A model generated the notes under the pieces. The model saw only the letters and a program-made list of their open reading frames with translations. It did no database searches and was not told where the DNA came from. A DNA stretch of 64,000 nt from a bacterium SCSIO 12741 (lineage in GTDB: Bacteria > Bacteroidota > Bacteroidia > Flavobacteriales_G > Salibacteraceae). The position numbers and the translations under genes were made by a program. This document shows positions 27,253 to 46,843 of the stretch, piece by piece. The stretch lies in assembly GCA_024398055.1 (NCBI GenBank), contig CP073749.1:1674594-1738593 (forward strand). Direction: 5' to 3'. Within the stretch, counting starts at the first letter, position 1. Every line of letters starts with the position of its first letter.

Positions 27253-27738
27253 CTACATACTTGCTGCGATTAAGGCACAAGTGAGAAATAACGAAATGAC
27301 GAAAACCGTTTGCTTTAGGGTTCGCTTGCTTTTCGTTTTCAAATGCTGCAACTCTTGTTGATCTTGTTTTTGCCGATGCATTTGTTGTATACACGGAATG
27401 AGTTGTGAGAATGCACGGCTGTTGTTGATGATGTAGTCACAGGCACCATGGCGGAGCAATTGTAAAGCTCGCTGTAAATGGTTTTCAACATCAGAGAGAA
27501 TAACCGTGGGCAAAACCTCAGGACGGCTTATCAATCGGCGGATTTCCCGGTAGGAGATATCAGAGTCTGCCGATTCAAGGATAATTAAGCAGGAGAAGGC
27601 ACCAGGTACATTCAAGGTTTTCCATTGTTGAGGATGAAAACAGTTGACCAGGTAATTTCCTGAAGATTCTATTTGTTGGGCCCATCCCAGCGCTTTTGCC
27701 GGGGAATTGGAAACGATGGCAATTTTTTGAGGAGTCAT
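27253..27738 (-). CDS. Degenerate receiver-domain protein with C-terminal membrane helix
   Basis: This 161-residue protein has the receiver fold pattern: IAIVSNSPAKALGWAQQI, a third strand CLIILESADSD, TVILSD, and LLRHGACDYIINNSRAF. It lacks the acidic pair of strand 1 and the phospho-acceptor aspartate at the end of strand 3 (Glu stands there), so it should not be phosphorylated normally. The C-terminus is a helix of about 18 hydrophobic residues (TVFVISLFLTCALIAASM) that would tether it to the membrane. It is the last gene of an EPS operon, 9 bp after the wecA-like gene, and resembles the intact receiver protein at 42846-43304 in overall plan. I infer a scaffolding or regulatory role in polysaccharide assembly. 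Confidence 0.65.
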   Translation of the reverse strand: MTPQKIAIVSNSPAKALGWAQQIESSGNYLVNCFHPQQWKTLNVPGAFSCLIILESADSDISYREIRRLISRPEVLPTVILSDVENHLQRALQLLRHGACDYIINNSRAFSQLIPCIQQMHRQKQDQQELQHLKTKSKRTLKQTVFVISLFLTCALIAASM

Positions 27739-27747
27739 GGGTTTCGT

Positions 27748-28862
27748 TTATCGTTCGAGTAAATAGTTTTTTTGACGGTTGATATGTTGCATTTGACGTA
27801 GCTGCGCAATTCTTGATCGGATGCGGAGCAAACGCTTGATGGCCATAAATTCGGAGAAAAACACCGTTGTTCCAGCCAATATGATAGCCTTGCTGAAGAG
27901 GTCTAAGGAGGTAAAATCAAGCCCGAAGGAGATGATGATCAACACAACCTCCAAGGCATAAAGAGTAAGTGCAGCTCCCTGATGACCTAAGCGATGTCGA
28001 AGCAAGCTATGGTGCAAGTGACTTCGGTCAGGGTGAAAAGGCGACTTACCCATGAGTAAGCGCAAGGAAAAGACGCGAAGTGTATCGTATACGGGTAGCA
28101 TGAATGCCCCAGAAGTAAGGTCATTGAAAATCCACTTTCCAGGTTTTGGGTAGACACCACGCCAAATACCGCCAGAATAAATCCAACAACGAGTGACCCA
28201 TTATCGCCCAGAAATATTTTGGAAGGATGGAAATTGTGCTTGAGAAAAGCGAGCAAACAAACAACCATTCCTGAGGATAATAACATGAACTCCACTTGTC
28301 CTTGAACCCAGAAAACGGAGGCAAACAGGAGGCTCAAAATCACACCAATTCCACCGGCCAATCCATCGATTCCATCCATGAGGTTAATCGCGTTTGTGAT
28401 ACCCGTTATCACCAATACGGTAAGTAGGTATTGCACCATAAAAGGAAGCTCTCCGTCAAATCCGATTCCAAACAACGACTCGATTCGAATACCTGCGGCA
28501 AAAACCAGGGAAGCGGCGGCAAACTGAATGAAGAGTTTTAGGGTCGCTCTCATCTCTTTAAGGTCGTCACGCAAACCGGTAAAAAACAAGGCGATAATGC
28601 CGAGACCAACAGCGAACCAGGTAACCGGATCATGTAAAAAGATGAAAGAAAACAGCATGGGGGTTAATCCAATCATGACGGCTACTCCACCCAAAGCTGG
28701 TTTTGGCGTTGCGTGTTTTTTGCGTTCGTCGGGTTCGTCGAGCAAGCGGTGCTTCACGGCGTATTGAATAATTTTTGGGATGAGGAAGTGAGTTATTAAA
28801 CCCATTCCGGCAAGGGCTAAACCTGCCAACAAAACGATCAGTAAAGGGTAAATCTGTTCCAT
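27748..28862 (-). pseudogene. wecA: Frameshifted WecA/TagO-like undecaprenyl-phosphate sugar phosphotransferase
   Basis: Two reading frames together make one complete transferase of the MraY/WecA family, which attaches the first sugar phosphate to undecaprenyl phosphate in EPS or O-antigen synthesis. The N-terminal part, from the ATG at 28862, has DEPDERKKHATPKPALGGVA, NAINLMDGIDGLAGG and KIFLGDNGSLVVG. The C-terminal part, in another frame, has LPVYDTLRVF and SPFHPDRSHLHHSLL, the conserved HxxHH-type end. The frames meet at 28107-28110, a run of four C on the plus strand; one more C would restore a single frame. This is either a true mutation or an assembly error. The first frame alone runs on out of frame to 27987. 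Confidence 0.85.
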
Positions 28863-28883: not shown

Positions 28884-30095
28884 TTAATATTCGTCGTCGT
28901 CAAAAAAGAGTCTTTGATTCAATAAATGAGCTTTGCCCGTTTTAATCAGGAGTTGTGGCTCCAGTGAGCGGGTAGAACTGAAAATCGATTTCTTCTGGTA
29001 GTTGTAGTCAAAGCCGAAGATCAATCGGGCGTACTTTCCTGCAATTTCCGACCATTCGTATCGGTCTTTGGCAATCCGCTTCATGGTTTTACCATTCTTG
29101 GTGTAGTCGGCAATTCTTTTCTCCTTCAGCACCTGGGTGAGGTCGTCGCTATTTTCAAAGTAGAAAGCCTTCCCTTCTGTAGTTGCCCGGTTGTAGGAAA
29201 CATCAAAAGCAATGATGGGCAGCCCCAGGTACATGGCCTCTACCAGCGATGGATTGGTTCCTCCGGCACTATGGCCATGAACGTACACGTAGCAGTTGGA
29301 CCGCAACTTGTCCAATTCTTTTTGATCGTATATGGGATCCAGTAAATGCAAGTGAGAATAGGAGCTGTACTTGGCTTTAAGTTCTTGACCGTAAGGGCTG
29401 TTTTCCCAGTTGCCTACTATTACATAAGGCTTGTCGGGCTGCGACTTAAAGGTTTCAAGTAATACATGGATGTTGTTCTCGGGCTCAATTCGACAAACCG
29501 TGAAAGCATAAAACTGCTGAAGAAAGGAATACTTAGCCCGATCAGCCTTGTTGATTCTTCTGGAGCGAGCATGATTACCTCCGTACTCTATGAGGTGACT
29601 TAGGGTTTTGTAGTAACGACCGGTGTATCGTTTGATGGATTCATTATCCGTTATATCAGCGTCGCTAAAACGTACGGCGAGGTATTCCGAAAACTTCAAG
29701 AACGCCCGAATCGGTTTGCTCCACTTGCCCCGTTTCCACTCCAAGCCATCAATGTTTACAATGATGCGTTTGCGGGAAAAGAGTTTGACAAAGGGTAAAA
29801 CAATGCAACCCGATACACCCAAAATGATCAGCGTATCTGCAAAAATGAGGGCATGTAGAATGGAGATGATGTCGTAGGGGATGCTTTGAAGTCCGTTGGC
29901 ATTGAGTGGTAAATGATACAGGCGAGCCTTCTTGTAGTATTTGGTTCGCTCCGATTTGGAGTAATACCGATTGCTGCAATACACACTCATCTCAAAACGA
30001 TCTCCCAATTGGTCAACCAGGTTATCGGCGAGGGTTTCAAATCCCCCGTATCGTGCAGGGACTCCAGCTGTACCTATGATGGCGATCTTTTTCAT
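28884..30095 (-). CDS. Glycosyltransferase with DUF1972 N-terminal domain (GT4)
   Basis: This 403-residue protein begins with KKIAIIGTAGVPARYGGFET, the signature of the DUF1972 rhamnosyltransferase-like group, and has a GT4-type donor domain with FYAFTVCRIEPENNIHVLL and HGHSAGGTNPSLVEAMYLGL. It transfers a sugar from a nucleotide donor to the growing lipid-linked oligosaccharide; the sugar is unknown. It is the first gene of EPS operon C. The gap before it carries a TGGCACG element 37 bp upstream and a TCTCnnnnAGAGA palindrome 118 bp upstream of the start. Confidence 0.88.
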   Translation of the reverse strand: MKKIAIIGTAGVPARYGGFETLADNLVDQLGDRFEMSVYCSNRYYSKSERTKYYKKARLYHLPLNANGLQSIPYDIISILHALIFADTLIILGVSGCIVLPFVKLFSRKRIIVNIDGLEWKRGKWSKPIRAFLKFSEYLAVRFSDADITDNESIKRYTGRYYKTLSHLIEYGGNHARSRRINKADRAKYSFLQQFYAFTVCRIEPENNIHVLLETFKSQPDKPYVIVGNWENSPYGQELKAKYSSYSHLHLLDPIYDQKELDKLRSNCYVYVHGHSAGGTNPSLVEAMYLGLPIIAFDVSYNRATTEGKAFYFENSDDLTQVLKEKRIADYTKNGKTMKRIAKDRYEWSEIAGKYARLIFGFDYNYQKKSIFSSTRSLEPQLLIKTGKAHLLNQRLFFDDDEY

Positions 30096-30219: not shown

Positions 30220-31314
30220 TTAGGCACTTAAGGTTTGTTGTTCAATGCGGGAGTTCATTACTTCTGGGGTGAAGAAGCGAGAACCGGTTCGGGCGGCTCT
30301 TGAAAACTCTTCGTAGAGCTGCTCGTTTCGAGCTAATTGATCAATTTTTTGCACCATTTCACCCTTGTTGTCAACATGAATAGCATAACCGTTGCGCTGA
30401 TCCTCGATCACTTCCGTAATTCCGCCAACCGGTGGAACGATTACAGGGAGGCCATAGGATAATGCTTCTAAGGCTGTTAAGCCAAAGGTTTCTACCCATT
30501 GATCGGGGTGCGATAAGTTGAGAACCAAATGTGCTTTTTCATAAAATGGGTGCACGTTTTTGGTCGCTGCATGAAGCTCTAAGTTAGAAGGCAAGGACTG
30601 ATCGATAAAGAATTGGTCGAGTTCCACAGAAGAAGCGTTTACCACCAACACAAATTGAAGATTAGGTAGTTTCCGAGCCAGTTCCACAAAGTCATTAACG
30701 CCTTTATAGGTCCGAAGGGAGCAGAGCATAAGCACAGTGAAAGGCTTATGTAAGGATGGAATGGATTGCGAAGATTTTTCAATGAATTCGGGAGTAAGTG
30801 AATTGTACACCACTTCGCCAGGCACCCCGATAAGTTCTTCGGCTTGCTTCAAATATCCTGAAACGTAGTAAGCCTTAGTGGCACAAAACTGAGCCACCTT
30901 TTTTAGAAACCACTTCAGTTGACGTGGATTCAAACTGGTTTCGTGAATGTGGTATATCACCTTCCTACCGGTTAACTTTCCGGCCAGGGCAGCACCAAAG
31001 GGCAGCAGGGTGTTGACATAAATGATGGCATCTTCCTTTCGGTATTTTAGAATCATAAAAAACAAAGCCACCTGACTGGCCAAAAAAGAGTAGAGCTGAA
31101 GCCATTTGTTTTCATGCCGTTTATACCCTAATTCCACTCGATTAACGCCCTTTAGATCTTGCAAGAAACCTTTGTTACCAGTGCTCGAGGTGAACAAATC
31201 GGCGGGGTGTCCTTGATTAGCAAAGTGATCAATGACTTGAGATAAAACCTTTGGACTACCGCTGAGGTCGTCCATCAAATGAACAAAAACCAGTTTTGTT
31301 TTAGGCAGAGACAT
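30220..31314 (-). CDS. GT4 family glycosyltransferase
   Basis: This is a 364-residue GT-B fold enzyme. The N-terminal acceptor domain begins SLPKTKLVFVHLMDDLSGSP. The donor domain contains FTVLMLCSLRTYKGVNDFV and the GT4 glutamate segment TFGLTALEALSYGLPVIVPP. An open frame from 31440 exists, but the ATG at 31314 directly precedes the first beta strand and overlaps the upstream gene by 14 bp, as expected for coupled genes. It is the last gene of EPS operon B. Confidence 0.88.
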   Translation of the reverse strand: MSLPKTKLVFVHLMDDLSGSPKVLSQVIDHFANQGHPADLFTSSTGNKGFLQDLKGVNRVELGYKRHENKWLQLYSFLASQVALFFMILKYRKEDAIIYVNTLLPFGAALAGKLTGRKVIYHIHETSLNPRQLKWFLKKVAQFCATKAYYVSGYLKQAEELIGVPGEVVYNSLTPEFIEKSSQSIPSLHKPFTVLMLCSLRTYKGVNDFVELARKLPNLQFVLVVNASSVELDQFFIDQSLPSNLELHAATKNVHPFYEKAHLVLNLSHPDQWVETFGLTALEALSYGLPVIVPPVGGITEVIEDQRNGYAIHVDNKGEMVQKIDQLARNEQLYEEFSRAARTGSRFFTPEVMNSRIEQQTLSA

Positions 31315-32599
31315 AGGCGTCGTTTTTAGTTTGAGGGGTAAATTGTTGTTTGGAAAAAGCAGCCTGAGAATGACCCAAAACCTGGTCGTATACATCACGC
31401 AATTGCAAGCCTCTTTGATCCCAGGCAAACCATTGCTCAAAATGAGAGCGAGCTTGACGAGATAGCTGTTTTCTCTGAATGGGGTTGTAATACAATTCGG
31501 TCAAGCGGTTAGCAAACTGGATAACAGTGTAGTCATACTCACCATAAGGAACCTTGCGACCACAGGAATTGTCTACAAACTCTCCGGGACCTTCGTTGTC
31601 AAAACAAATGACAGGAAGACCATAAGAAAGGGCTTCAGATACGACCATTCCAGCACCTTCGTGCGAGGGAAAAAGAAACACATCTGATTCCTGGTAGATT
31701 TTCATGAGTTCATTCCGATCGATCCAGGAGGTAAAGGTTACCGCCTTATCGATGCCTAAACGTTTGCTCAGGTTTTTCAGGTAATCCTCCAAAGGCCCTT
31801 TTCCGATCAGGTGCAATTGAGATTGTGCTTTTTGATTTTCTGGCAGGCGGTGGTGAAACCGGGCAAATGCACGCAACGTAACGTCGAACCCCTTAAGGCT
31901 TACAAACCGTCCAACGGAGAGCACCTTGAAGCCTTCTCCATGTACTGTTTTTTGATCATTGTGCCATTCGGAAGCCACGCTTGGCATGTATTCCCATTGT
32001 TTGGCATCCAAGCGAAGTTCTTTGGCCACACCGGAGTGCATCGCTAAAACCTTATTGGATTTTTTCTTGGTCAAAAACACAAAGGGATCCAGGTTCCAAA
32101 AGAACTTTTTGGCCAACCAGGTCATGGAGTTCTTCAGCTTGTCTTTGAAGGGTTTTCCCGATTGAACAAAGGCTGCTGGAATTTTGGGGTGATGTCCAAC
32201 AGGACCCCAAACCAAAGGTTTGCCTAAAGTCCATAAAAAAGAGGGAGTCCAATCGTTGTGGAAATTGAGGTTGTGAGTGATATCAAATTTGAGTTTTTGA
32301 GCCAGCACAAACAGGGGCAAAGTCATTTGCCAGAGGTAGAAATACAGGAGTGCTCCCTGACCTTTTCTTTTCCAGGCCCGAAGAATGTAAGGCCAATCAA
32401 AGTAGTAGAACGAGATGTTCTTGTAGCGCGAATCAGGATTGGCCCGCTGGTATTTTTCGATGGCTTCCCGGTTGTTTTTTCGGGTCACCACCAAGATGCG
32501 ATTAAAGCGGGCTATTTGTAGAACAAAGTTCCATCCCATTCCATCTTCAGATCCTTTGTATGGATTTACGGCGTATGCTGAGGCTAAAATTGTAGTCAT
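31301..32599 (-). CDS. GT4 family glycosyltransferase
   Basis: This 432-residue enzyme starts at the ATG at 32599 (TTILASAYAVNPYKGSEDGM, the first strand and the Gly-rich acceptor loop). The donor domain has FKVLSVGRFVSLKGFDVTL and SHEGAGMVVSEALSYGLPVI with the conserved E-x7-E. The longer frame from 32731 adds 44 residues that overlap the acyltransferase gene and look unlike protein. It stands between the acyltransferase and the second GT4 gene in EPS operon B. Confidence 0.9.
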   Translation of the reverse strand: MTTILASAYAVNPYKGSEDGMGWNFVLQIARFNRILVVTRKNNREAIEKYQRANPDSRYKNISFYYFDWPYILRAWKRKGQGALLYFYLWQMTLPLFVLAQKLKFDITHNLNFHNDWTPSFLWTLGKPLVWGPVGHHPKIPAAFVQSGKPFKDKLKNSMTWLAKKFFWNLDPFVFLTKKKSNKVLAMHSGVAKELRLDAKQWEYMPSVASEWHNDQKTVHGEGFKVLSVGRFVSLKGFDVTLRAFARFHHRLPENQKAQSQLHLIGKGPLEDYLKNLSKRLGIDKAVTFTSWIDRNELMKIYQESDVFLFPSHEGAGMVVSEALSYGLPVICFDNEGPGEFVDNSCGRKVPYGEYDYTVIQFANRLTELYYNPIQRKQLSRQARSHFEQWFAWDQRGLQLRDVYDQVLGHSQAAFSKQQFTPQTKNDAYVSA

Positions 32600-32612
32600 G
32601 ATTTTGGGGTGT

Positions 32613-33320
32613 TTAAGCCACTTTTGGGGTGACGATTCTTTCTTTGATTTTTCGAGCTGGAACACCAGCAATGACGGAGTTGGCGGGAAAACTTTTGGTG
32701 ATGACCGATCCGGCAGCCACCACACAACCATCGCCCAGGGTTACTCCATCCAAAACGGTGACTTTGGATCCAATCCAGCAGTTTTTACCGATGTTAATTC
32801 CCTGGCGGCTAACGCCTTGAAAGCGAATTTCCTGATCCAACCTTCCGAAGTGGTGATTTTCTGGGTGGCAACTGAAGTACTGACCTATAATACAACCTTC
32901 CCCAAGGGTCAGTCCTCCAGCCCCGCCCAGATAGGCAAATTCCCCAATCCCGACGTTATTTCCTATGTGTATGAATTGACCGATTTGGCCAAATGAAGTG
33001 GAAATGATAAGCCGACTAAAGGCTCCGATTCCTACGTTGTTTCCAATTTTGATTTTACCTGAACCCAGGGCGCTTAAGCAAACGTGATCTTCAATTTTTA
33101 CCCAGCGACCCAGGGAGATTTTACTGAGATAGTGAAACTGAACTCCGCGGCCCAAAAGAACCTTGTTTGGAATTCGTCCTCTTAGGATCAGTTTTCCGGA
33201 TCGTGCCCAGGCCATCAACTTTTCAGTAAAAAGCTCGATTACCATGGAGGTGGTTACAGCCGGACCAAAGGCAAATTGAGGGTTTCTCAGACGGATAATG
33301 CGTTCTATAATAGCTTTCAT
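32613..33320 (-). CDS. Left-handed beta-helix acyltransferase (WbbJ type)
   Basis: This 235-residue protein carries repeated hexapeptides (KIKIGNNVGIGAFSRL, QFIHIGNNVGIGEFAYL, INIGKNCWIGSKVTV, VTLGDGCVVAAGSVI) that fold as a left-handed beta helix. The HPENHHFGR segment supplies the catalytic histidine of the xenobiotic/maltose acyltransferase group. It probably acetylates a sugar of the EPS repeat unit. It lies 11 bp after the fusion gene and 13 bp before the next glycosyltransferase. Confidence 0.88.
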   Translation of the reverse strand: MKAIIERIIRLRNPQFAFGPAVTTSMVIELFTEKLMAWARSGKLILRGRIPNKVLLGRGVQFHYLSKISLGRWVKIEDHVCLSALGSGKIKIGNNVGIGAFSRLIISTSFGQIGQFIHIGNNVGIGEFAYLGGAGGLTLGEGCIIGQYFSCHPENHHFGRLDQEIRFQGVSRQGINIGKNCWIGSKVTVLDGVTLGDGCVVAAGSVITKSFPANSVIAGVPARKIKERIVTPKVA

Positions 33321-33331
33321 AAGGCGGAGAT

Positions 33332-35977
33332 TTAAAAGGTTCTTACTTCTTGTACAACTTGCTCTACTGTGGCATCCAGGTTCACATTCTCAATCTGAAG
33401 AAACTTGGACTGGCTGTTTTTTCCAGCCAAATCGTGAAACAGGGATTGGTAATCCTGAGTCAGGCGGGTGATCACGTTTTCGGTGAGCTCTTGTTTACGT
33501 TTTAGAATTTCCTGGGCCGAGGCAAAGAGCAATACATTTACTTCAGGCTTCCAGATGAATTTGTACAGGGCACGGATCAATCCTTTGGGCAATACCAGGT
33601 TGGATCGACGAGAGTCGCTAATGAAGTCAAAGTAGTAGCGATCATAGAGTACAATGGTTCCTGGTAAGATGTACTTGAAGTACACGTAGATCTGACCCAC
33701 CACGTAATCGGTGTAGTAATAAGCGAAACGAAGCAGGGAGCTCAGGGTTCCTTTGTTGGTGCCGGTTCGTGGCAAACGATTGATACTGCGCTGCTCCGCT
33801 CCTTGTTTCCCGTATCTCCAGGCACTCAAAATGGGCAACAAGGAAGGGCGGTGACGTAGCACCACTACCGGGCGACGAAGTTCTAAGCTGATGCGTTTTC
33901 CAGCAGCCTCAATCACACTCGATTTTCCAGCTCCATCAACGCCAGTAAAGGTGATGATCATGCCTTGGTTTTTCCATAGTCGGGTGAAAGTATCTACCAC
34001 ATAATTGAAGGTGTTTTTTAACCCTTCCCATCCCTTGTTTCGAGGATCCTGATTCAAAGTCTGCATCAAAGATTGACGGATAGAAGCGGATGCGTTAAAC
34101 AGGCTTTCCTTGTTCTCTAAACCGAGATTGTACTTGCGGTTAAGGTGATGGATAGTCAAATCTTGTTTCTTGGCACTGAAGGCCTTGAAAAAGGTGCGGT
34201 ACTTGGCTGGAATATCAGCTCTGTTCAATTGGTAGAACAGGAATACGAATTCAAAATCAAGTACCTCGTCTGGGAGGGCCAAGCCGTACATTTCCTGACG
34301 AGCAGTGAGCAACATTCGCTCGGGATTCATCATGGCCTTGGCTTTGTACTTAAAAGAGTGTAGTAAATCGAGGCTTAGGAATGAGTTATCCGAAAGGTGT
34401 AGCTCAGCTGTTGTCATAAACGACTTGTCTACAAACCGGGCACGAACCACCCCTGGATACTTTTTCAGGTAGCTTTTTATGGGCTCCAAGTTGGCCTTTG
34501 GAATTAAGATATCTAAGTCGGAACCAGGCTGAAGTTCTTCCAACTGATTTTCGTGAAACTTAAGCAGGGCATAGGTGCTGTTGGCCATACGTCCGAAAAA
34601 ATCCTGGAGAAACAGCATTTTCACATCTTCCTGAGGCAATGGAATAACATCGCGAAGGGCGTCTAACCAGGTCTCGGCCAACCACTGAACCTGAGTATGC
34701 AATTTCTCCTGAGCAGCATACAGGGTGAGGTAATAACTTACCTGGTAGTAGAGGTACAATTTGAAATAGAGATCCACGTCCAGGTTGTGGGTTTCAATCA
34801 AACGACGAATAGGCTCTGTTTTCAAGGCCTTGTTTAAGGTCTTTTTGATTTCTGAATAAGATTTACGCTGAACCAAAACACCACTCTGAAATACAAAATG
34901 AAAAAGGTCGAACAAGGCTGGCATTTTGGATTCGGATAGCTCCCAGTCGAAAGCGTGCAATCTGTTGGAAGCCTTGTACAAGTTCCAGGGTGTAAAATCA
35001 CCATGAGCCATGGAGGTGTGGATCAGCTTTCCTTCATCCAAAGATGCTTCCAGCTCGATCATGCATTGACGGATCAAATCACTGTGCTGGATTCGGTGAT
35101 CGGGATAGAGGCGGTCCATCCGGTTTTTGGCTTTTTGAAAGAAGGCAGTCTCTCCCAAGGTGGAAAGTGAACTGCTTTTCACATGAAGCTCCACCAGCGC
35201 AGCGCTGTGTACATTCCCTATTTCTGTGGGTTGTGAATCTGCGGAAGGACGAACGTTTTGAGTAATCAAACTGTGACCAGCACCATCAAAGGAGTGCCGT
35301 GGAAATACAAGCTTGGTCCAGCTGTGGTAGGACAGTCGGCGGATGGCCGACATTTCGTTTTCCAATATTTTCTGGGATCCACGGCCCAGTGGAATTTTTA
35401 CAAAATGTGTGGATTTGCCGCGCTGATTGAGCTCCACCACAACCTTGCGATTGGGTCCGGTAGTGCCCATAAAAAAGCTGTAGCTCTCAAAGTCTAATGG
35501 AGCCCAGCAGCCTTCCATCCATAGAGGCTTTTTGTAGTAAACCGTAAAGGATGGGAAGAAGGCCGAACGAAACCCTTTCAAAGCAAAAGCAAGGGACCAA
35601 ACAAAGGCCAACAATTTTGCCCGCATGCCCGAAGAGCAATAGAAGTTCAAGAAGGTGGCTCGCTTGGCGTTTTGAGGAACAACCCAGCGCATGCTTCCAT
35701 CCTGATTTTTGATGTAGTAAAACTTCTTGTGCTGATAACCCTTTTGAGGAGCTCCAGAGCGAGACGTAAAGTCCATGATGTAGTCTGATCGCATTTCAGA
35801 TCGATCATCCTCAGCCACACGAATCTGCATGGTAGGTGCATCCTCTTGAGAGGCATTACGAAGCGTTTCGTTGTGGCCTATTTTATCTTGAGAATTCTTA
35901 CTTATTATGCCTGCCTCGGGTGAAGCGAAGAGGTGAGTAAGAATGTTTAAATCGCTGGAGTTTAAAAAGGGTTTCAT
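33332..35977 (-). CDS. Three-domain fusion: APH-type kinase, nucleotidyltransferase, thymidylate-kinase-like
   Basis: This 881-residue protein fuses three nucleotide-using domains. After about 140 residues of unknown type comes an aminoglycoside-phosphotransferase-like kinase: the Lys strand THFVKIPLGRGSQK, the catalytic loop HGDFTPWN near 323 and the metal site FDWELS near 341. Around 484 lies GSDLDILIP, the GS-x-D-x-D pattern of a nucleotidyltransferase fold like NTP_transf_5. The C-terminus (from about 672) is a P-loop kinase with TFTGVDGAGKSSVIEAA and the DRYYFDFISDSRR lid region, as in thymidylate kinases. The start at 35983 is TTG; the ATG at 35977 is preferred. It is first in EPS operon B, so it may make or modify a precursor. 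The substrate is unknown. Confidence 0.8.
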   Translation of the reverse strand: MKPFLNSSDLNILTHLFASPEAGIISKNSQDKIGHNETLRNASQEDAPTMQIRVAEDDRSEMRSDYIMDFTSRSGAPQKGYQHKKFYYIKNQDGSMRWVVPQNAKRATFLNFYCSSGMRAKLLAFVWSLAFALKGFRSAFFPSFTVYYKKPLWMEGCWAPLDFESYSFFMGTTGPNRKVVVELNQRGKSTHFVKIPLGRGSQKILENEMSAIRRLSYHSWTKLVFPRHSFDGAGHSLITQNVRPSADSQPTEIGNVHSAALVELHVKSSSLSTLGETAFFQKAKNRMDRLYPDHRIQHSDLIRQCMIELEASLDEGKLIHTSMAHGDFTPWNLYKASNRLHAFDWELSESKMPALFDLFHFVFQSGVLVQRKSYSEIKKTLNKALKTEPIRRLIETHNLDVDLYFKLYLYYQVSYYLTLYAAQEKLHTQVQWLAETWLDALRDVIPLPQEDVKMLFLQDFFGRMANSTYALLKFHENQLEELQPGSDLDILIPKANLEPIKSYLKKYPGVVRARFVDKSFMTTAELHLSDNSFLSLDLLHSFKYKAKAMMNPERMLLTARQEMYGLALPDEVLDFEFVFLFYQLNRADIPAKYRTFFKAFSAKKQDLTIHHLNRKYNLGLENKESLFNASASIRQSLMQTLNQDPRNKGWEGLKNTFNYVVDTFTRLWKNQGMIITFTGVDGAGKSSVIEAAGKRISLELRRPVVVLRHRPSLLPILSAWRYGKQGAEQRSINRLPRTGTNKGTLSSLLRFAYYYTDYVVGQIYVYFKYILPGTIVLYDRYYFDFISDSRRSNLVLPKGLIRALYKFIWKPEVNVLLFASAQEILKRKQELTENVITRLTQDYQSLFHDLAGKNSQSKFLQIENVNLDATVEQVVQEVRTF

Positions 35978-36005
35978 AAGCAATGATTTCGTTCCATAAA
36001 CCTTA

Positions 36006-36021
36006 AACCAACCTTGTGCCA
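36006..36021 (-). promoter_or_regulatory. Candidate sigma-54 promoter of EPS operon B
   Basis: The minus strand reads TGGCACAAGGTTGGTT. The -24 half TGGCAC is exact and the -12 half is TTGG, one base off in spacing and identity. It lies 44 bp upstream of the ATG at 35977 and 73 bp from the palindrome centre at 36094. Confidence 0.5.
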
Positions 36022-36129: not shown

Positions 36130-37422
36130 TTAGCCTTTTACCCAGGATTGATAGAGGTCGGGCCTCTTTTTCCTTAAAATCACTTTCTGCTTGAGGGTGA
36201 GCAAGGGGTTACGTTTAACCACCAGCAGCCAGATTAGAAGTTGGTAGAAGAGAATACCAAAATTGGTTTCTCCAAAAATCCCGAATTCGGTGAATGAGTT
36301 AATCAGCAAGGGAATAATCAGTCCAATGAAAAACAAGCGATCGGCCTGAAGGGAGAGTTTTCGAACACCGGAGAAGGTGAATATCATTTGAACCAGTACG
36401 ATGGAAAACCCCACGAAGCCCAAATTCATCAGGACTTGAATAAAGGTGTTGTGGGTCATCTTACCCGCATAGGTGTGTACACTTTGAAAGGCATCGGTGT
36501 AAGCGATGCGCATGTAGCCAAAACCGAATAGAGGTTCTTTTGGGAGACCTTCGCTCAACAGGGCTTTCCAAAACGGTAAACGTCCTGTCATACTTAGTAC
36601 CTCGTCCAGGCCGCCGTGTTTGATGATGATGGTATTTACGACCAAAGGAACGGCCGCTATTCCTGCTGCCACCATACCCAACTTTAGCTTACGGTTTTTG
36701 GAAATGAAAATGAAGTAGCCCAGAATCAAGGCCAAACCGATCATCGACGATCGGGATCCGGTTTTGACCAGGGCAAAAAGCATAACCGCCATCATGAGGA
36801 TGTGCTTCACCTTGGGTGCGCCGAGGTACAATTCCATTCCGCTACAAGCCAATCCTATCACGGCCAGCATACCCAGCTCATTGGGGTTCATAAAATATCC
36901 TCCAAGTCGAGCTTCTTCCCCTCCATGGGTTAACCGGTAAAAGGTGTCGGGATTAACGAATAATCCAATGACGAAAATGGCCAGGATAAAGAACAGGGCG
37001 GGGGCCAATAGAGCCGAAAATCGAGTGGCTCTTTGCGGATAAAAATCGCGTAGTACCAAGTAGGTTTTGATGAACAAAAAGCCGAAAAGGAAACTTTCGG
37101 TGTTCATGGTTAATTGCAGCAAAGAGTAACCCGGCTTGGTGGACCACAAAAGGGAACACAAACCCAAAAACAGGTAGCCGAAATAAAAGAACAAAGCCGC
37201 CTGATTTTGCCAGTGAAAGGAAGTAACATTTCCTCGATTTTGAAGTTGTTTTAAAACCAAGATCAACCACCCGGTAGCCATTAATCGAACGATCACCTTA
37301 ACTACTCGGGTAATCACGATACTCTCGGATACCGTAAAGTAGCTTCCCACTTTCAAAAACAGGATAGCGATCAGAACCCAGGCGATGTTTCGGGCAAATT
37401 TATCTTGGCTTTGGGCCATCAT
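36130..37422 (-). CDS. wzy: O-antigen/EPS polymerase (Wzy type)
   Basis: This 430-residue polytopic membrane protein has about eleven helices and a Wzy_C/O-antigen-ligase pattern: LGGYFMNPNELGMLAVIG in the large loop, LVKTGSRSSMIGLALILGY and GYMRIAYTDAF followed by THNTFIQVLMNLGFVGF. Wzy polymerases join undecaprenyl-linked repeat units on the periplasmic face. It is the last gene of EPS operon A and overlaps the preceding glycosyltransferase gene by four bases. Confidence 0.88.
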   Translation of the reverse strand: MMAQSQDKFARNIAWVLIAILFLKVGSYFTVSESIVITRVVKVIVRLMATGWLILVLKQLQNRGNVTSFHWQNQAALFFYFGYLFLGLCSLLWSTKPGYSLLQLTMNTESFLFGFLFIKTYLVLRDFYPQRATRFSALLAPALFFILAIFVIGLFVNPDTFYRLTHGGEEARLGGYFMNPNELGMLAVIGLACSGMELYLGAPKVKHILMMAVMLFALVKTGSRSSMIGLALILGYFIFISKNRKLKLGMVAAGIAAVPLVVNTIIIKHGGLDEVLSMTGRLPFWKALLSEGLPKEPLFGFGYMRIAYTDAFQSVHTYAGKMTHNTFIQVLMNLGFVGFSIVLVQMIFTFSGVRKLSLQADRLFFIGLIIPLLINSFTEFGIFGETNFGILFYQLLIWLLVVKRNPLLTLKQKVILRKKRPDLYQSWVKG

Positions 37423-38537
37423 AGTGCGGCGCGGTATACTTGAAATAGTTGTTCACTGATGGAGCTCCAGTCAAATGCTTTTCTCACCATTTGGCGCGCA
37501 TTTTCTCCTAATTTTTCGAGAGAGCCATTGGCAAAGTGATCTTGCATTTGTTTCATGCTTTGAGCCAGGTTTTTGGAGTTGTTGTTATGCAATCCGGCAC
37601 CGGCCTTAAATTGATTGATATAATCGGCCATGTTGCTTTCCTGGCTTACCACGCAGGGCACGCCAAATCCGGCGGCTTCCAGCACGGCTCCGGGCAAACC
37701 TTCGTTCCGGGAGGGGTGAAAAAACACATCCGATTCCAGCAGCAATTGGTTTTTCGCATCACCGGTCTGCATGCCATGAAAAGTCACCCGATGATCTAGG
37801 CCCAGTGATTGAGCCAGTTCCTTGAGCTTGGGCAATTCAGCGCCGTCGCCAATGATCCAGAGTTCGGCTTGCAAACCTTGACGGGTGAACAGCTCAAAAG
37901 CTTGCAACAGAATATCGAGGCCCTTGGTTTCAATATCGATTCTTCCGCAAAAGGTAAATACAGGGTGCTTGCGGTTTTTCAGCTTGTAATCTTTTTGGTT
38001 TTGAGGCAGAATCTGTCCGTTGGGAATCAACACGCCGTTGGGGTGCAGTTCACGTTGCTGAAGGGTATTCCATTCGCTTTTCCCGATCACATGTAGAGAT
38101 TGAGCATGCTCAATCAAACGGCGTTCGAAAAGTTGGAAGTAGACTTTTTTGACCCACTTACTTTTCTCCATAGCCTTGTCGTTGTAGGCTCCGTGCGGAG
38201 TGAGTACGTATGGAATTTTCAAACGATCCAGCAGTTTGGAAGCCACGAAAAAGCGAGGAATAAATCCACCGTGAATATGAACCACACAAGGATCCTTCAT
38301 GGCGGTTAGTCGTTGCTTAAGTTCTGAAGGCAGTCCCCACGGAAAAGAAGGTGCCAAAAAGAGGCGGGTCACATAGTTTCTTTCCGGGTAGTTTAACTCC
38401 AGATTAGTGGCAATTCCCCAAACCTCTACTTCGTGACCCAATTGAGCCTGGGTAGTGGCCAGGTTGTTCACCACCTTGTTTACCCCATTCATGCGTAGGG
38501 GATTGGCTTTTCCAAGTATCAAGTGAATGATTTTCAT
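37419..38537 (-). CDS. GT4 family glycosyltransferase
   Basis: This is a 372-residue GT-B enzyme. It has MKIIHLILGKANPLRMNGVN with the acceptor-site Gly-rich loop, VLTPHGAYNDKAM, the donor domain FTFCGRIDIETKGLDILLQ, and SRNEGLPGAVLEAAGFGVPC with its two glutamates. It overlaps wzy and wzx by four bases each, so it belongs to EPS operon A. The sugar is unknown. Confidence 0.9.
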   Translation of the reverse strand: MKIIHLILGKANPLRMNGVNKVVNNLATTQAQLGHEVEVWGIATNLELNYPERNYVTRLFLAPSFPWGLPSELKQRLTAMKDPCVVHIHGGFIPRFFVASKLLDRLKIPYVLTPHGAYNDKAMEKSKWVKKVYFQLFERRLIEHAQSLHVIGKSEWNTLQQRELHPNGVLIPNGQILPQNQKDYKLKNRKHPVFTFCGRIDIETKGLDILLQAFELFTRQGLQAELWIIGDGAELPKLKELAQSLGLDHRVTFHGMQTGDAKNQLLLESDVFFHPSRNEGLPGAVLEAAGFGVPCVVSQESNMADYINQFKAGAGLHNNNSKNLAQSMKQMQDHFANGSLEKLGENARQMVRKAFDWSSISEQLFQVYRAAL

Positions 38538-39772
38538 GCTTGCTTAAATTTTAAGGTTAGGGAATAGAGAAAGTAGATTTGGATGATGACTTGGCTGGCG
38601 ATAAGCCCAATAACCACACCGGCAATACCAAAGAATTGAATTACCGGGTGAGCCAGGCAAATGCTGAAAATAGTGCTCAAGGTGTAGGCGATAAAAATGC
38701 TTCGATTGAGTTCGAGCGTACGAATGGCAAAACGAAGAATAGTACCGGTAAACACGAAGATGTACAACAGGGCAAAGCCATACAGCAAGTGGGCATAATC
38801 CACGTAATCATCTCCATAAAGAAGTCTTACCAAAAAGGGACCACAAACCGCCATAGAAATGCCCATGACGGTAGTGGCCATTACCCCCTGACCCGCAATT
38901 TTTTTCAAAAAAGATTTTAGTGCTCCAGATCCTAACTGCTGGAAAATTTGAGAAGCCCGAAGAGGAACAATGTGCTCCAGGGCCTGGAATACCACATGCA
39001 TAACGCCCACCAGATTTTGCAAAATTCGAATGGCGCCGACGGCCGCTGGTCCAAGTAGAACGGATGCGGCAATCAAAAAGAAGTTTCCGGAAGTCCATTG
39101 AAGCAATGCCGTACCGATCAACCATTTGGAAAAGGTCCAGTGGCGGGCTAAATCACTTTTAAAATCATGGAGACTGATAGAGCGAATGGGCAAAACCTGA
39201 TTCAAACCCAATAGAGGAATAAGGTAGGTAACCATCAGCACCAATAGAACAGAAGTTAAGCTTACGGAACCCATCCAGGTAAGTATCGCGAAGGCCCCTA
39301 ATTGAAGGGTATAAACCACCGAATCGAGTACCAGAACCTGCTTGGTTTTTCCCTGGCAATAGTGAAGGCGACGGATAAAGTCAAAGGTCAAAAAGGAGAA
39401 CAACACGCCCGAACCCAATAAGGCCTGGTCCAGATTCCAAACACTCACCCAAGGGGTAGCCAGGGTAAAAACGAGGATCAGAAGTCCAGAGGCGCCAATA
39501 CTGTACAAGGCTTGCATCCAACCTACCGAAGTGAGGTAGCCGGTTTTTTGTTCCAAGGACTTCTGTGGAAACAGAGTGTATAAAGGAGTACTGATTCCCG
39601 CTTGATTCAAGCTGCTGAAGAACAATACCACCAACCAAAAGATGGAGAATTGTCCGAAGCCATCCATTCCTAAAGCACGGGCCAGCAGCACGCCGGCAAT
39701 GAAGTTTCCTCCGCTCACCACGCCTTGATCCATAAAGGGCAACAACTTAGATTTCCACTTACTTAGGTTCAT
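38534..39772 (-). CDS. wzx: Polysaccharide flippase (Wzx type)
   Basis: This 412-residue protein has about twelve transmembrane helices of the MATE-like/MVF flippase superfamily. The N-terminal helix 1-2 region GGNFIAGVLLARALGMDGF is typical of Wzx and PST proteins, which turn lipid-linked repeat units over to the periplasmic face. Neighbouring genes on both sides overlap by four bases. Together with wzy and the Wzc/Wza-like proteins it makes a complete Wzx/Wzy-dependent export pathway. Confidence 0.85.
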   Translation of the reverse strand: MNLSKWKSKLLPFMDQGVVSGGNFIAGVLLARALGMDGFGQFSIFWLVVLFFSSLNQAGISTPLYTLFPQKSLEQKTGYLTSVGWMQALYSIGASGLLILVFTLATPWVSVWNLDQALLGSGVLFSFLTFDFIRRLHYCQGKTKQVLVLDSVVYTLQLGAFAILTWMGSVSLTSVLLVLMVTYLIPLLGLNQVLPIRSISLHDFKSDLARHWTFSKWLIGTALLQWTSGNFFLIAASVLLGPAAVGAIRILQNLVGVMHVVFQALEHIVPLRASQIFQQLGSGALKSFLKKIAGQGVMATTVMGISMAVCGPFLVRLLYGDDYVDYAHLLYGFALLYIFVFTGTILRFAIRTLELNRSIFIAYTLSTIFSICLAHPVIQFFGIAGVVIGLIASQVIIQIYFLYSLTLKFKQA

Positions 39773-42102
39773 GATCTTAGGTGTTTAATGAGTTTATCGC
39801 CACTCAGTTTTAAGCGGGAATTGCTGGGAAGGTAACCCCACAACACTTTGAGGCTATTGAAGGGCCACACTTCGGATAAGTGGAAGCCCTTTACTCCATT
39901 GAGTAGAATGGACAGGTTTGAAAACCCATACTCTTCGCTGATTTTATCTACGGCCATTAGGTCCTTTTCCTTGCTGCGTTTGGCGTGAATCACCCAGATG
40001 GATTGGTTGCTGTATTCCATCCACTTTAAGGCTCCTATGGAGGTTGCCAAATCCGGGGAGTCGATTAGAACCAAATCAAAGTCTTTTTTGAGCGAGTTGA
40101 TCAATTCTTCAAGCTGTGGCTGATTGTACAACCGAAGCGGGAAATTGCGATTGTTGCCGGCAGGCAAGAAACTCCAGTTTTCGGTTTCATTTTGTACCAG
40201 GCAGTTTTCCAAAGTGCCACTACCGTTCAATATTTCGGCCAATCCGGCATGAGATTCACATTGCATTTGAGCAGATAGATCCGGGTTGATCAGGTTTCCA
40301 TCCAACACGATAACTCGCCATCCCATTAATCCATAAGCTTTGGCCAATCCGCGAACTGAAGTTGTTTTACCCTCACCGTGATGAGACGATACCAATGACA
40401 CGGCACTTCCCCGAACCACTCGTTTAAGCAGCTGCAGATTGGTGGCCAGGCTTTGCCAGGCGGCTTCATCCTTACCATTGGATTTAGCACTCAGGTGTGG
40501 AATTTCGCCACAAAGAGGAGTGGCAGAAGTAGCTTCCAATTCCTCCCGGGAGTTTACTTTCCCCTGCAGCATTTCGTGAATTACGATTAAGGAGATAGAT
40601 CCCAACAAGGCGATGAATACCGAAATGATAACAACCATGTTCTTTTTGGGCGATACCGGAATTCGGGGTATCAATCCGTGCTGAATAATGCGGTGAAAGG
40701 AGATATTGGCCGCCTCTGCGATCGACGCCTCCGTTCTCTTCTCAGCTAAAAAGTTGTAGATCTTTTGGTTCAGTTTAAAGTCGCGTTCCAAAATAACCAG
40801 CTGCTTTTCCTTGGTAGGAACCGAAAGCAATGCTTCTTCAGCAGCTAATATGGCGTTTTCAATTTCCTTTCTTTTTATCCCGCTATTAATCCGGGTATTG
40901 CGAATGCTTTCCACAATGTAGTTCTCGATATGACGGATACGATCCTCCACCAACTTCACTTTTTCATCGGCAGGAGTGTAGACCACCAAAAGCTCCTTTT
41001 TTTCGCCTTCAAGCTGGATTAGTTCTTTTACCAGTTCGGTGGACAGCAAGTCGTTAAAGGCCTCGAAATTGGGAGCCAATTCGGTAAAATCTCTTTGAGA
41101 CTTGGTCACGTAGTGTTCCAGGGTGTCCAGGGCCGCTTCGTTCATTTCCAGGTTGGCCAATTGAATTTTGAGTTGGGCTATTTTCCGTAAGTCGGTTTCA
41201 TTTTCCTGGTAGGTGTTGATGATGTTGTTTTGTAGTCGGTATTTCTCCAGAGCACTTTCCGATTCCTTCAGCTCATTTTCAACCTTGGCCAATTGATTTT
41301 CAATAAAACGTACGGTACGACCGGCGGCTTGAGTTCGGTTTTCTACGTAATCGCGCACATACGATTCGGATAGGGCATTGACAAAAGCTGCCGCCTTTTC
41401 GGGTACTTCGGAGCGATAGGATACCCGAAGAATGGCAATGTCTTTATCGATGGCACTCACGTCCAGATTGTCACCAACCAGGTGCTCGCTGATAAATTCT
41501 TTGGAGTGGATTTTAAAGCGAAAATGATCCGCCCAATCTATTTGTTCTTTGTCGGTAAATAGTTCTTGATTTAGTTTTACTGTAAATTGAAAAAGAGGGT
41601 CTATTACAGGCGTGTTTAGTTTTCCTGTTACCCGGCGTTCAACTCCTCCCGGCGCAAAAACGAGGGTAAAGGTGGAGTCCTGATTCAAGTACAAATCGAA
41701 AAAGCGATCATAGGCTTCTGAAGCCATACCTGAGTACTCCACCAAAAAGGGTGTGTGGAGGTAAAGTTCAGAAGTGCGCACCTTTCCCACCCGGAAGTAA
41801 CTCACTTCAAAATCTAAGGTTTCCAAAGCTTTCTGAACCAACATCGGAGACTTCAATACTTCCACCTCAGCAGCAATCTTGTTGGAGTGAGAAAACAGGT
41901 CGAAATCTTCGTACAGGGACGCACTCGAAAAACCATGTCCAATATCGTCCAACTTGATTTTTGAGGTGCTTTCAAAAGTCGGATTGGTATACAGCACGTA
42001 GCGAAAGGCCAATACCAGAGCCAGCAACACGCTCAATAGGATGATGGGTGCACCCTTGAGCAGGGGCCAGAGCATTCGTTTTAGTTGTTGAGCGTTTTCC
42101 AT
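39769..42102 (-). CDS. wzc: Wzc-like chain-length regulator with atypical tyrosine-kinase domain
   Basis: This 777-residue protein has two membrane helices (about 18-35 and 490-510) enclosing a Wzz-type periplasmic coiled-coil region, and a cytoplasmic ATPase domain. Its Walker A is SSHHGEGKTT, Walker A' is VLDGNLINPD (the usual second Asp is Asn), and Walker B is LVLIDSPD. The C-terminus WGYLPSNSRLKLSGDKLI lacks the tyrosine cluster that BY-kinases autophosphorylate. It should still set chain length and contact the Wza-like exporter, but kinase signalling may be lost. It lies 2 bp from the Wza-like gene. Confidence 0.87.
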   Translation of the reverse strand: MENAQQLKRMLWPLLKGAPIILLSVLLALVLAFRYVLYTNPTFESTSKIKLDDIGHGFSSASLYEDFDLFSHSNKIAAEVEVLKSPMLVQKALETLDFEVSYFRVGKVRTSELYLHTPFLVEYSGMASEAYDRFFDLYLNQDSTFTLVFAPGGVERRVTGKLNTPVIDPLFQFTVKLNQELFTDKEQIDWADHFRFKIHSKEFISEHLVGDNLDVSAIDKDIAILRVSYRSEVPEKAAAFVNALSESYVRDYVENRTQAAGRTVRFIENQLAKVENELKESESALEKYRLQNNIINTYQENETDLRKIAQLKIQLANLEMNEAALDTLEHYVTKSQRDFTELAPNFEAFNDLLSTELVKELIQLEGEKKELLVVYTPADEKVKLVEDRIRHIENYIVESIRNTRINSGIKRKEIENAILAAEEALLSVPTKEKQLVILERDFKLNQKIYNFLAEKRTEASIAEAANISFHRIIQHGLIPRIPVSPKKNMVVIISVFIALLGSISLIVIHEMLQGKVNSREELEATSATPLCGEIPHLSAKSNGKDEAAWQSLATNLQLLKRVVRGSAVSLVSSHHGEGKTTSVRGLAKAYGLMGWRVIVLDGNLINPDLSAQMQCESHAGLAEILNGSGTLENCLVQNETENWSFLPAGNNRNFPLRLYNQPQLEELINSLKKDFDLVLIDSPDLATSIGALKWMEYSNQSIWVIHAKRSKEKDLMAVDKISEEYGFSNLSILLNGVKGFHLSEVWPFNSLKVLWGYLPSNSRLKLSGDKLIKHLRS

Positions 42103-42104
42103 GA

Positions 42105-42842
42105 TTAATTTCCAAATGAGGTGAATAGGATCACTACCGCAGTTATGATACTTGCTACAGAGATGAGGGTCGGGGCCTTTTTGTCCAGGGCCTTTCCGTT
42201 TTTAGCCGGGGCGATGATCATGTCTCCAGGCAACACCGAAATGTTGTTGATTTCATACTCCTCCATTTCGGTGAGATTCAAGACATACTGACGGTTGTTG
42301 CGAATGAGTTTCACTCGCTTTTTATCGGCGTAGTAATCAAAGCCGCTACCCTTACCAATGACTTCGTATAGGGTGTTCTTTTCCTTTTCAAGCAGGTAGT
42401 TTCCTGGCGAGTTAAATTCACCTAGAAGAGTAACTTCCTTGTTCAGCACTTTGACCACCACTATGGGGTTAACCACAAATTCGGCAAACCGGGCGCTTAG
42501 GGTATCAGCTGCTTGATTTAGGGTAAGACCCGCCAGGTGCACCTTGCCTACTTTTGGAACCTGGATATTTCCTTCCGGATCGATCAGTTCCCATTTTCCA
42601 TAGGCCTCAGCGGAGTTGTAGATGTCAAAAACAGATCCTACACTCAAGTCGTTGTGATTCCATAAGCTGATGGACACTTTGTCGTCTACCCGTAGCACGT
42701 AGCTTGCTGAGTCGGCAGCGAGACTATCTGCAGTTAGGGGATAGTGCTTTCCGGTTTCCAGCAAGTTTTGAACCTGGCAGCTGCTTAGGCTAAGCACCAG
42801 AAAAAACAAAAGCATCAGTTGAAAGGATGGGAGCGTTTTCAT
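42105..42842 (-). CDS. wza: Wza-like outer-membrane polysaccharide export lipoprotein
   Basis: This 245-residue protein starts with a lipoprotein signal (LLFFLVLSLSSCQVQ). It has the Poly_export domain (SYVLRVDDKVSISLWNHNDL and VQVPKVGKVHLAGLTLNQA patterns) and a SLBB domain (EVTLLGEFNSPGNYLL), with a C-terminal hydrophobic helix (LISVASIITAVVILFTSFG). It probably forms the periplasm-spanning exit channel with the Wzc-like partner. It is the second gene of EPS operon A. Confidence 0.9.
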   Translation of the reverse strand: MKTLPSFQLMLLFFLVLSLSSCQVQNLLETGKHYPLTADSLAADSASYVLRVDDKVSISLWNHNDLSVGSVFDIYNSAEAYGKWELIDPEGNIQVPKVGKVHLAGLTLNQAADTLSARFAEFVVNPIVVVKVLNKEVTLLGEFNSPGNYLLEKEKNTLYEVIGKGSGFDYYADKKRVKLIRNNRQYVLNLTEMEEYEINNISVLPGDMIIAPAKNGKALDKKAPTLISVASIITAVVILFTSFGN

Positions 42843-46268: not shown

Positions 46269-46277
46269 ATCGAAAGA

Positions 46278-46820
46278 TTAAAATTTCACCAAAAAGACCT
46301 CATGGTCGGCTCCGGCATCACGGCTTTCAACCATTTCTACGTCCACATTTTTTTGAAACATTTTCCCTATTCCCTTGAGCAGGCCAGTCACAAAATCAGC
46401 CAGGCCTTCACGTTCTGAGAAATAGTGCACGTGCATGGTGTTATCCGTTACATCGGTCACCTGAAACTCAGGAGGGGTTAATTCCGGATACATAAGCATT
46501 ACCCGGCTGTGGAAATTGGGAAGGTTCACCAAAAACTCCTTGAAGTTATCTCCTCCGGAAGCTAATAGTGAGCCATAGTTTTCCATTCCGGTTTTCAGAA
46601 TCCAGTATTCTCCAAAAGCGCTGAGTACGGCAGAAGCAGGAACCTCAAGAACCTCGCTGGCGGCGCCAACCAGGTTATAGGTCACTGAATCATCGTAGGA
46701 CTCATTGCTCATAAAGAAATCGGTATCGATCTCAGCCTTGGCTTTAATGGCTTCCCACTTGTCTTCTCCGAAGTTTTCGGTTACAAGGCCCTGAATCGCT
46801 TGATTAACAATTCCATACAT
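46278..46820 (-). CDS. H-NOX heme sensor protein (nitric oxide binding)
   Basis: This 180-residue stand-alone H-NOX (HNOB) domain binds heme b and senses nitric oxide. The heme ligand is H104 in LPNFHSRVMLMYP, the conserved proline lies after it (PELTPP), and the propionate-binding YxSxR motif is Y133-S135-R137 in HYFSER. The N-terminal YGIVNQAIQGLVTENFGED and EYWI segments are typical. No tyrosine is seen at the distal position equivalent to 140 of oxygen-binding H-NOX proteins (Leu is there), which favours NO over O2. The gene stands between the sigma-54 regulator and the hybrid kinase in one operon. Confidence 0.94.
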   Translation of the reverse strand: MYGIVNQAIQGLVTENFGEDKWEAIKAKAEIDTDFFMSNESYDDSVTYNLVGAASEVLEVPASAVLSAFGEYWILKTGMENYGSLLASGGDNFKEFLVNLPNFHSRVMLMYPELTPPEFQVTDVTDNTMHVHYFSEREGLADFVTGLLKGIGKMFQKNVDVEMVESRDAGADHEVFLVKF

Positions 46821-46843
46821 AATTATGTTCGTTTAGTTTAAGA

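Follow-up and report, generated by a model that had tools for sequence, protein, structure and literature searches.

The window analyzed here is a stretch of 64,000 nucleotides from the bacterium SCSIO 12741 (Bacteroidota; Flavobacteriales_G; Salibacteraceae), contig CP073749.1 of GenBank assembly GCA_024398055.1, positions 1,674,594 to 1,738,593 of the forward strand; the coordinates below are those of the window. On its minus strand, inside an operon for exopolysaccharide (EPS), lies a gene that encodes in a single chain three predicted domains: an APH/choline-kinase-like kinase, a nucleotidyltransferase (NTase) and a thymidylate-kinase-like (TMK-like) P-loop kinase. Judging from sequence comparisons, the same kinds of parts, fused in some bacteria and encoded by nearby genes in others, probably perform one chemical task in polysaccharide making. 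Relatives are cited by a handle where needed, G for a genome and L for a locus.

The fusion gene and its predicted domains

The gene and its parts are the following:

33332 to 35977, minus strand: whole fusion gene, 881 amino acids from the ATG at 35977
35501 to 35734, minus strand: N-terminal module, residues 82-159, with the family motifs NPDGSxRWxxP and FLxFY
34643 to 35500, minus strand: APH/choline-kinase-like kinase domain, residues 160-445, approximate boundaries (Foldseek; PF01636 in family members; K194, E208, H325, D327, N332, D344)
34982 to 35005, minus strand: HGDFTPWN, catalytic loop of the kinase, residues 325-332
33968 to 34642, minus strand: NTase domain, residues 446-670, approximate boundaries (model; ANT(2'')-Ia match; D487, D489, D537)
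34499 to 34525, minus strand: GSDLDILIP, NTase motif with D487 and D489, residues 485-493
33335 to 33967, minus strand: TMK-like P-loop kinase domain, residues 671-881 (5x8a_B match; Thymidylate_kin in family members)
33917 to 33943, minus strand: GVDGAGKSS, P-loop, residues 679-687

An alternative TTG start extends the open reading frame (ORF) to 33332-35983 on the same strand (883 amino acids). The motifs HGDFTPWN, GSDLDILIP and GVDGAGKSS, on which the original prediction was built, are all present in the translation. They do not arise by chance, since 282 contig stretches encode relatives and, in 90 aligned full-length sequences, the catalytic motif residues vary little or not at all. In the N-terminal module, which is mixed alpha/beta in the AlphaFold2 model, R97 is conserved in 98% of these sequences.

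Taken alone, the window protein is poorly recognized by the libraries. Thymidylate_kin was its sole Pfam match (E 0.023, under the family cut-off), with no match to the APH and choline kinase families (PF01636, PF01633) at E 0.1 and none to NTP_transf_5 (PF14907). The NCBIfam model of dTMP kinase (TIGR00041) gave 18.9 bits against a cut-off of 83.25, and a scan of PDB sequences gave a probable thymidylate kinase at E 0.065. Since these single-sequence scans are nearly blank, the assignment of the domains rests on homologues, models and fold comparison. When 40 members, split and partial ones included, were scanned with Pfam at E 0.01, Thymidylate_kin was matched in 34, PF01636 in 20, PF01633 (Choline_kinase) in three and NTP_transf_5 in two; among 61 middle domains scanned alone, 10 matched NTP_transf_5 at E up to 1 (best 0.00018).

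The AlphaFold2 model of the full protein (61 sequences) reached a mean predicted local distance difference test score (pLDDT) of 91.3 and a predicted TM-score of 0.75. In Foldseek, the best-ranked match of the kinase domain was the pneumococcal choline kinase LicA (4r7b_B, E 8.2e-07, third overall), and APH(2'')-Ib (3uzr) was found at E 5.8e-06. The TMK-like domain superimposes on the thymidylate kinase 5x8a_B with Z 19.4 over 179 residues at a root-mean-square deviation (rmsd) of 2.9. Comparison of the full model with the PDB barely probed the NTase and N-terminal parts; the NTase domain was folded alone afterwards (pLDDT 95.7), and its top match in VIA-align was ANT(2'')-Ia (4wqk, Z 10.3, 153 residues, rmsd 3.4), directly followed by named nucleotidyltransferases or MenT/LnuA enzymes. 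The Foldseek E-values for this domain were weak, the best being 3.7e-04. Thus the middle segment, whose fold had been singled out for checking, came out as an NTase and not as some other fold. Structure prediction, PDB fold comparison and the Pfam matches of homologues bear out the proposed architecture, and the models support a fusion of APH/choline-kinase-like, pol-beta-type NTase and TMK-like P-loop domains.

The canonical stretch after the DRY motif of thymidylate kinases holds residues that contact thymine. The TMK-like domain resembles these enzymes (TIGR00041, PF02223) in its fold, its P-loop and its DRY motif, but it stays under the dTMP kinase cut-off and, in place of the canonical SSYAYQG after DRY, has a stretch of the family's own, in which D784, R791 and N793 do not vary: where the TMK of G086 has the canonical DRYLFSSYAYQG, the aligned window protein reads DRYYFDFISDSR. 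By this sequence signature the domain is not a dTMP kinase. It is hardly conceivable, in addition, that a housekeeping dTMP kinase was relocated into the operon. Such a relocation would agree with the fact that the NCBIfam dTMP kinase cut-off is passed in just three of 100 relatives and not in G000. Nevertheless, fused genes were found by two profiles in 17 of 149 genomes, so that they cannot serve the many genomes without one; 60 of the 100 relatives, fused genes included, pass the cut-off of the broader Pfam family, and other kinases may serve. This distribution and the lost signature led to the rejection of the housekeeping role. As a separate observation, the best dTMP-kinase-type match in G000 reads like a deoxynucleoside kinase. 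A role in anti-phage defence was also rejected, PADLOC giving weak P-loop-type matches only (best E 0.0085).

Fused and split relatives

Relatives were collected from genome contigs, of which the best 80 of 282 stretches were kept, and from 149 whole genomes, the source genome included. All of the best 80 stretches belong to Bacteroidota and Balneolota (fused forms of the latter: L042, L046, L053, L055); 78 carry one long ORF and two (L028, L087) carry adjacent split genes. Among the whole genomes, 19 gave a match at E 0.001, over most of the protein in 16 and partial in three (G061, G057, G105). In four of the searched genomes, which fall in the source's own family, the proteins are identical to Flavobacteriales proteins. 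Of 395 genomes drawn evenly from the phylum, ten (G000, G500, G516, G097, G178, G472, G309, G441, G418 and G290) gave strong matches (E 5.4e-51 or better), while 204 gave some match, mostly short and centred on the P-loop among those listed. The system is scattered within the phylum.

The alignment of 90 full-length sequences comprises the window's own and 89 homologues; L002 (self), L018, L019 and L020 (partial), L028 and L087 (split) and four duplicates were left out. Alignments A1 and A3 hold 61 of these 90 sequences, A2 has 40 rows, and A4 and A5 have 24 and 25 hand-chosen rows, respectively. The kinase residues H325, D327, N332 and D344 (HxDxxxxN and a later Asp) are found in all 90 sequences, as are D487 and D537 of the NTase, whose D489 is kept in 89 (DxD and a third Asp). 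In the P-loop domain, G679, D681, G684, K685, D779, R780, R827 and K828 are 100% conserved. Altogether, the 16 catalytic sites checked are kept in 86 of the 90, the four departures (L017, L054, L086, L099) affecting one site each. The claim of intact catalytic residues therefore stood for 86 of the 90 full-length sequences; it failed for a partial-length orthologue and three NTase-only relatives (see the last section), so that the losses sought among orthologues do occur, in few of them.

Outside this family the parts are encoded separately. A search of a plasmid collection gave one fused gene, annotated as a hypothetical protein, in Hymenobacter swuensis, and separate parts in other phyla. 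On a plasmid of Leisingera sp. NJS204 (L101), a phosphotransferase gene is followed, one gene on, by that of a 457-amino acid NTase-TMK protein; on a plasmid of Agrobacterium leguminum (L102), the kinase and an NTase-TMK protein are encoded about 4 kb apart in one EPS cluster; and in Legionella adelaidensis (plasmid, L104) the NTase-TMK gene overlaps a phosphotransferase gene. The RW of the N-terminal module is likewise present in the Leisingera and Agrobacterium kinases. Within the collection, the Agrobacterium kinase and its NTase-TMK protein find the same six records: the query's own, four related Leisingera strains and the fused Hymenobacter gene. In 24 NTase-TMK parts, those of Leisingera, Agrobacterium and Legionella included, D487, D537 and the P-loop, DR and RK.E residues are invariant. 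It is important to note that A4 and A5 themselves contain the L101, L102 and L104 proteins, whose profile hits follow by construction. The proteins of G290 and G314, two genomes of the same phylum with adjacent genes, were absent from the profiles used. In G290 the TMK, NTase and kinase parts matched at E 7.3e-37, 5.4e-10 and 5.8e-21; in G314 the TMK and kinase parts matched at 4.0e-31 and 3.4e-28, the NTase being non-significant (E 0.2). All three NTase Asp residues are aligned in place in both genomes. Finally, one cluster of a Streptomyces plasmid (L105) combines an APH gene with a TMK-like gene that stands alone (profile E 5.2e-14); a DUF1972 glycosyltransferase, an O-antigen ligase and an acyltransferase are encoded there too. 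No phage relatives of the NTase-TMK part were found at E 1e-3.

The search for the same architecture in other genomes, which had been suggested with the prediction, thus gave the fusion across Bacteroidota and Balneolota and the parts split in distant bacteria. Because the activities are fused in one lineage and encoded by neighbouring or nearby genes in others, they appear to be functionally linked. In a quick tree of NTase-TMK parts, the 90 fused forms and three split ones (L028, L087 and a further one, L140) lie on one side of a branch of 99% support; these three form a 100% group inside the fused side, and the other five split forms fall outside. The supports are from the Shimodaira-Hasegawa-like approximate likelihood ratio test (SH-aLRT) only, and the outer part of the tree has long branches in an uncertain order. 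As far as the sequences go, the tree fits one fusion and one later split.

The EPS operon around the fusion

Numbered from the fusion, the neighbouring genes of the window are the following; cluster sizes refer to similar proteins in other loci:

42105 to 42842, minus strand: -5, Wza-like export protein (Poly_export, E 5.1e-19; cluster of 44)
39769 to 42102, minus strand: -4, Wzc-like BY-kinase (bacterial tyrosine kinase; GNVR, AAA_31, Wzz; cluster of 52)
38534 to 39772, minus strand: -3, putative Wzx flippase (no library match; so called for its position and its hydrophobic sequence; cluster of 54)
37419 to 38537, minus strand: -2, GT4 glycosyltransferase
36130 to 37422, minus strand: -1, Wzy/O-antigen-ligase-like polymerase (Wzy_C, E 2.1e-17; cluster of 65)
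32613 to 33320, minus strand: +1, hexapeptide acyltransferase (Hexapep, E 2.7e-15; cluster of 57, each at +1)
31301 to 32731, minus strand: +2, GT4 glycosyltransferase (the ORF overlaps that of +1; the true start is probably later than called)
30220 to 31440, minus strand: +3, GT4 glycosyltransferase
28884 to 30095, minus strand: +4, DUF1972 glycosyltransferase (E 3.2e-28; cluster of 62)
27987 to 28862, minus strand: +5, phosphoglycosyltransferase-like protein of the Glycos_transf_4 family (PF00953, E 4.5e-38; cluster of 46)

The same arrangement recurs in the relatives. Within six genes upstream of the fusion, a Wzy-like gene was found in 55 of 78 loci, a Wzx-like gene in 52, Wzc in 50 and Wza in 43, and the acyltransferase stands at +1 in 48 of 76. 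These figures are lower bounds, given the limited flanks and the strict clustering, and they cover 78 of the 80 contig loci and no locus of the genome search; the protein clusters cover both. All members of the Wza, Wzc, Wzx, Wzy and acyltransferase clusters have the like-named window gene as their best reference. On sequence grounds, the operon is of a Wzx/Wzy type that recurs across Bacteroidota, Wzx being a putative assignment. Beyond the fused clade, a nearby glycosyltransferase is closest, among the operon references, to the +2 enzyme of the window in five of six loci (L101, L102, L105, L137 and L138, not L104; E 1e-42 to 6e-68). The matched genes of the window operon encode glycosyltransferases, the acyltransferase and export or assembly proteins; no match to nucleotide-sugar synthesis genes appeared among those scanned with Pfam.

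The fusion had been said to head an EPS operon. It does lie inside one, yet five export, assembly and glycosyltransferase genes precede it on the same strand; what precedes the gene itself is a gap. This gap before the ATG measures 152 bp in the window (median 135.5 bp in 70 loci), and the median distance from the fusion to the next gene is 2 bp in 76 loci; a second transcription unit may begin at the fusion gene. No site of the sigma-70 type appeared in the gap. A sigma-54 promoter was considered from a site with two mismatches at 36006-36021 and rejected, the window having 24 such sites versus 30.5 expected.

Several other genes were noticed around the operon. The strand of the EPS genes also carries, upstream of them (43455-48193), genes for a hybrid histidine kinase that matches HNOBA, a haem-NO-binding protein (H-NOX) and a response regulator that is a sigma-54 activator; the position of these H-NOX/HNOBA regulators suggests control of the EPS by nitric oxide. 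Beside them, on the plus strand, is an ORF of 2171 amino acids (48363-54878). The operon ends with a 161-amino acid protein (27253-27738) without a Pfam match, which by eye resembles a receiver domain with a C-terminal membrane helix. In L049 (14-6022) and three other loci, proteins of one cluster (representative of 2002 amino acids) are encoded immediately upstream of the fusion.

Proposed activity and alternative explanations

We tentatively propose that the fusion is a trifunctional activation line for one EPS, which from sequences and models seems quite possible, and which would give an activated building block or the donor of a decoration. The APH-like domain would phosphorylate a small alcohol or a sugar, and the NTase domain would couple the phosphorylated compound to a nucleotide. 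The TMK-like domain would then add a further phosphate, either on the nucleotide part, as in cytidine diphosphate (CDP)-phosphoramidate 3'-phosphate or 3'-phosphoadenosine 5'-phosphosulfate (PAPS), or on a phosphate of the intermediate. A glycosyltransferase or other transferase of the operon would use the product. The argument for one pathway comes from three folds with conserved sites, a conserved operon and the split relatives elsewhere; the latter strengthen the predicted chain of phosphorylation and nucleotidylation, which is plausible from the sequences. A more specific version seems possible too, and we hold it with greater reserve: a single-chain form, in an enzyme of 750-920 amino acids in Bacteroidota, of an unrecognised three-step pathway of several phyla that would supply, for a phosphate-linked decoration or an unusual sugar of bacterial EPS, a donor of a new kind, doubly phosphorylated and activated by a nucleotide.

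The best logical precedent for a succession of kinase, NTase and P-loop kinase would be the capsule pathway of Campylobacter jejuni for the donor of O-methyl phosphoramidate (MeOPN). The proteins Cj1415-Cj1418 include a kinase, a cytidylyltransferase and a P-loop kinase. According to a passage of PMC11800397, whose reference list holds the title "Cytidine Diphosphoramidate Kinase", they make CDP-phosphoramidate 3'-phosphate from glutamine, ATP and CTP. Both systems belong to surface-polysaccharide loci and would share a similar activation logic; separate enzymes act there and one chain here, and the likeness proposed is one of logic. Adenosine 5'-phosphosulfate (APS) kinase drew weak hits only, in general scans, no comparison having been aimed at APS kinase or Cj1415.

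The main alternative, which we regard as rather unlikely, is that hydroxyls of the lipid-linked repeat unit are the targets of the kinase and NTase, which would leave a phosphate or phosphodiester decoration, and that the P-loop kinase extends the phosphate. The nearest folds of these two domains include modifiers of hydroxyls of aminoglycosides or choline (LicA, APH(2'')-Ib, ANT(2'')-Ia). A partial precedent is described in an excerpt of PMC9266682, in which PsmK phosphorylates a serine of the lasso peptide pseudomycoidin and the annotated nucleotidyltransferase PsmN leads to hexoses on that phosphate. A kinase followed by an annotated nucleotidyltransferase would be common to both cases, but the substrate there is a peptide, PsmN as a hexose transferase is left open in that excerpt, and again the likeness proposed is one of logic. 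Against this alternative, folds do not fix substrates, and no lipid-binding part was identified, none having been specifically searched for.

Distinctly less probable is a salvage or recycling role, in which the kinase and NTase would make a nucleoside diphosphate sugar from a free sugar and the TMK-like domain would be a nucleoside monophosphate kinase that recycles the nucleotide. To our knowledge, the known sugar nucleotidylyltransferases have other folds, which speaks against it, as do the changed stretch after DRY and the score of 18.9 bits against 83.25; another nucleoside monophosphate or nucleotide would still be compatible with these. Its favourable points are the TMK fold itself (Z 19.4), the rfbABCD genes near the split forms of L101 and L102, and NahK, which has an APH-type fold. 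The latter is presented in a part of PMC6264712 as a sugar 1-kinase.

For the protein and its architecture, directed searches of an open-licence library gave no published description, which cannot exclude one elsewhere; the remark of the original prediction that no described enzyme of this kind was known agrees with this, within the same limit. In the scans run, no Pfam or NCBIfam model covers the three-domain protein. The component folds are known ones. Although many families of Bacteroidota have the operon, its central gene lacks a full-length match in these libraries; with its three activities apparently linked in function, a gene so far without annotation becomes a pathway open to direct testing. 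Should a phosphate-linked decoration be made, this would matter for the charge of the polysaccharides of common environmental Bacteroidota, for their binding of ions and for their recognition.

Several points weigh against the proposed activation line. Its substrate, product and order of steps are themselves a proposal. LicA, of the lic pathway, shares with the kinase domain its fold, as the top Foldseek match, and a Brenner-type catalytic motif, but no LicD-like phosphotransferase was matched by Pfam among the operon genes scanned, the rest of the genome not having been searched. (The aromatic residues of the choline pocket of LicA are named in a section of PMC4364537.) Among the split forms, the Legionella NTase part matches its profile over 72 columns only (E 7.3e-05), and the Streptomyces kinase over only 60; by its sequence the latter may be a generic APH. 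A separate Streptomyces NTase (L105:14591-15406) was a motif-based candidate with a profile E of 0.21 and was not counted. At E 1e-8, the kinase profile found 18 of the 149 genomes and the NTase-TMK profile 21, with 17 shared. Since all 17 carry one fused gene, the count is no independent sign of linkage; what it tells is that the parts seldom occur singly. One of the 17 is G061 (L143:9239-11143), whose fused orthologue is of partial length, stands beside the usual glycosyltransferase, differs at two NTase Asp positions and gives no match to the TMK profile. G057, on a contig of 7.8 kb, has just the kinase, and in G318 a TMK-like gene has neither partner within 19.9 kb.

To these are added three genomes of one family (G062, G105, G140) with NTase-only proteins (L142:9563-10300, L151:8123-8950, L152:8163-8915) in which only one of the three Asp residues, or none, is left, each gene lying directly beside a Wzc-like gene. 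From their sequences, these could possibly be pseudoenzyme partners of the BY-kinase. Their position also agrees with a regulatory or scaffold role of the fusion, whose domains would be sensors of nucleotides or sugars, with the Wzc kinase or the assembly complex as their target; we consider such a role very unlikely, the catalytic sites of all three domains being nearly invariant in the fused family.

The last of these relatives, in G090 (L153:7437-9170), is a 577-amino acid protein in which NTP_transf_5 and Thymidylate_kin are both above the Pfam cut-offs. Like the fusion, it joins NTase and TMK in one chain at a locus with a glycosyltransferase gene, here accompanied by FemAB-like and DUF354 genes; it differs in being strongly diverged and in the lack of any kinase profile hit in the genome, a further point against the proposal. 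By sequence it is a second NTase-TMK lineage without the kinase.

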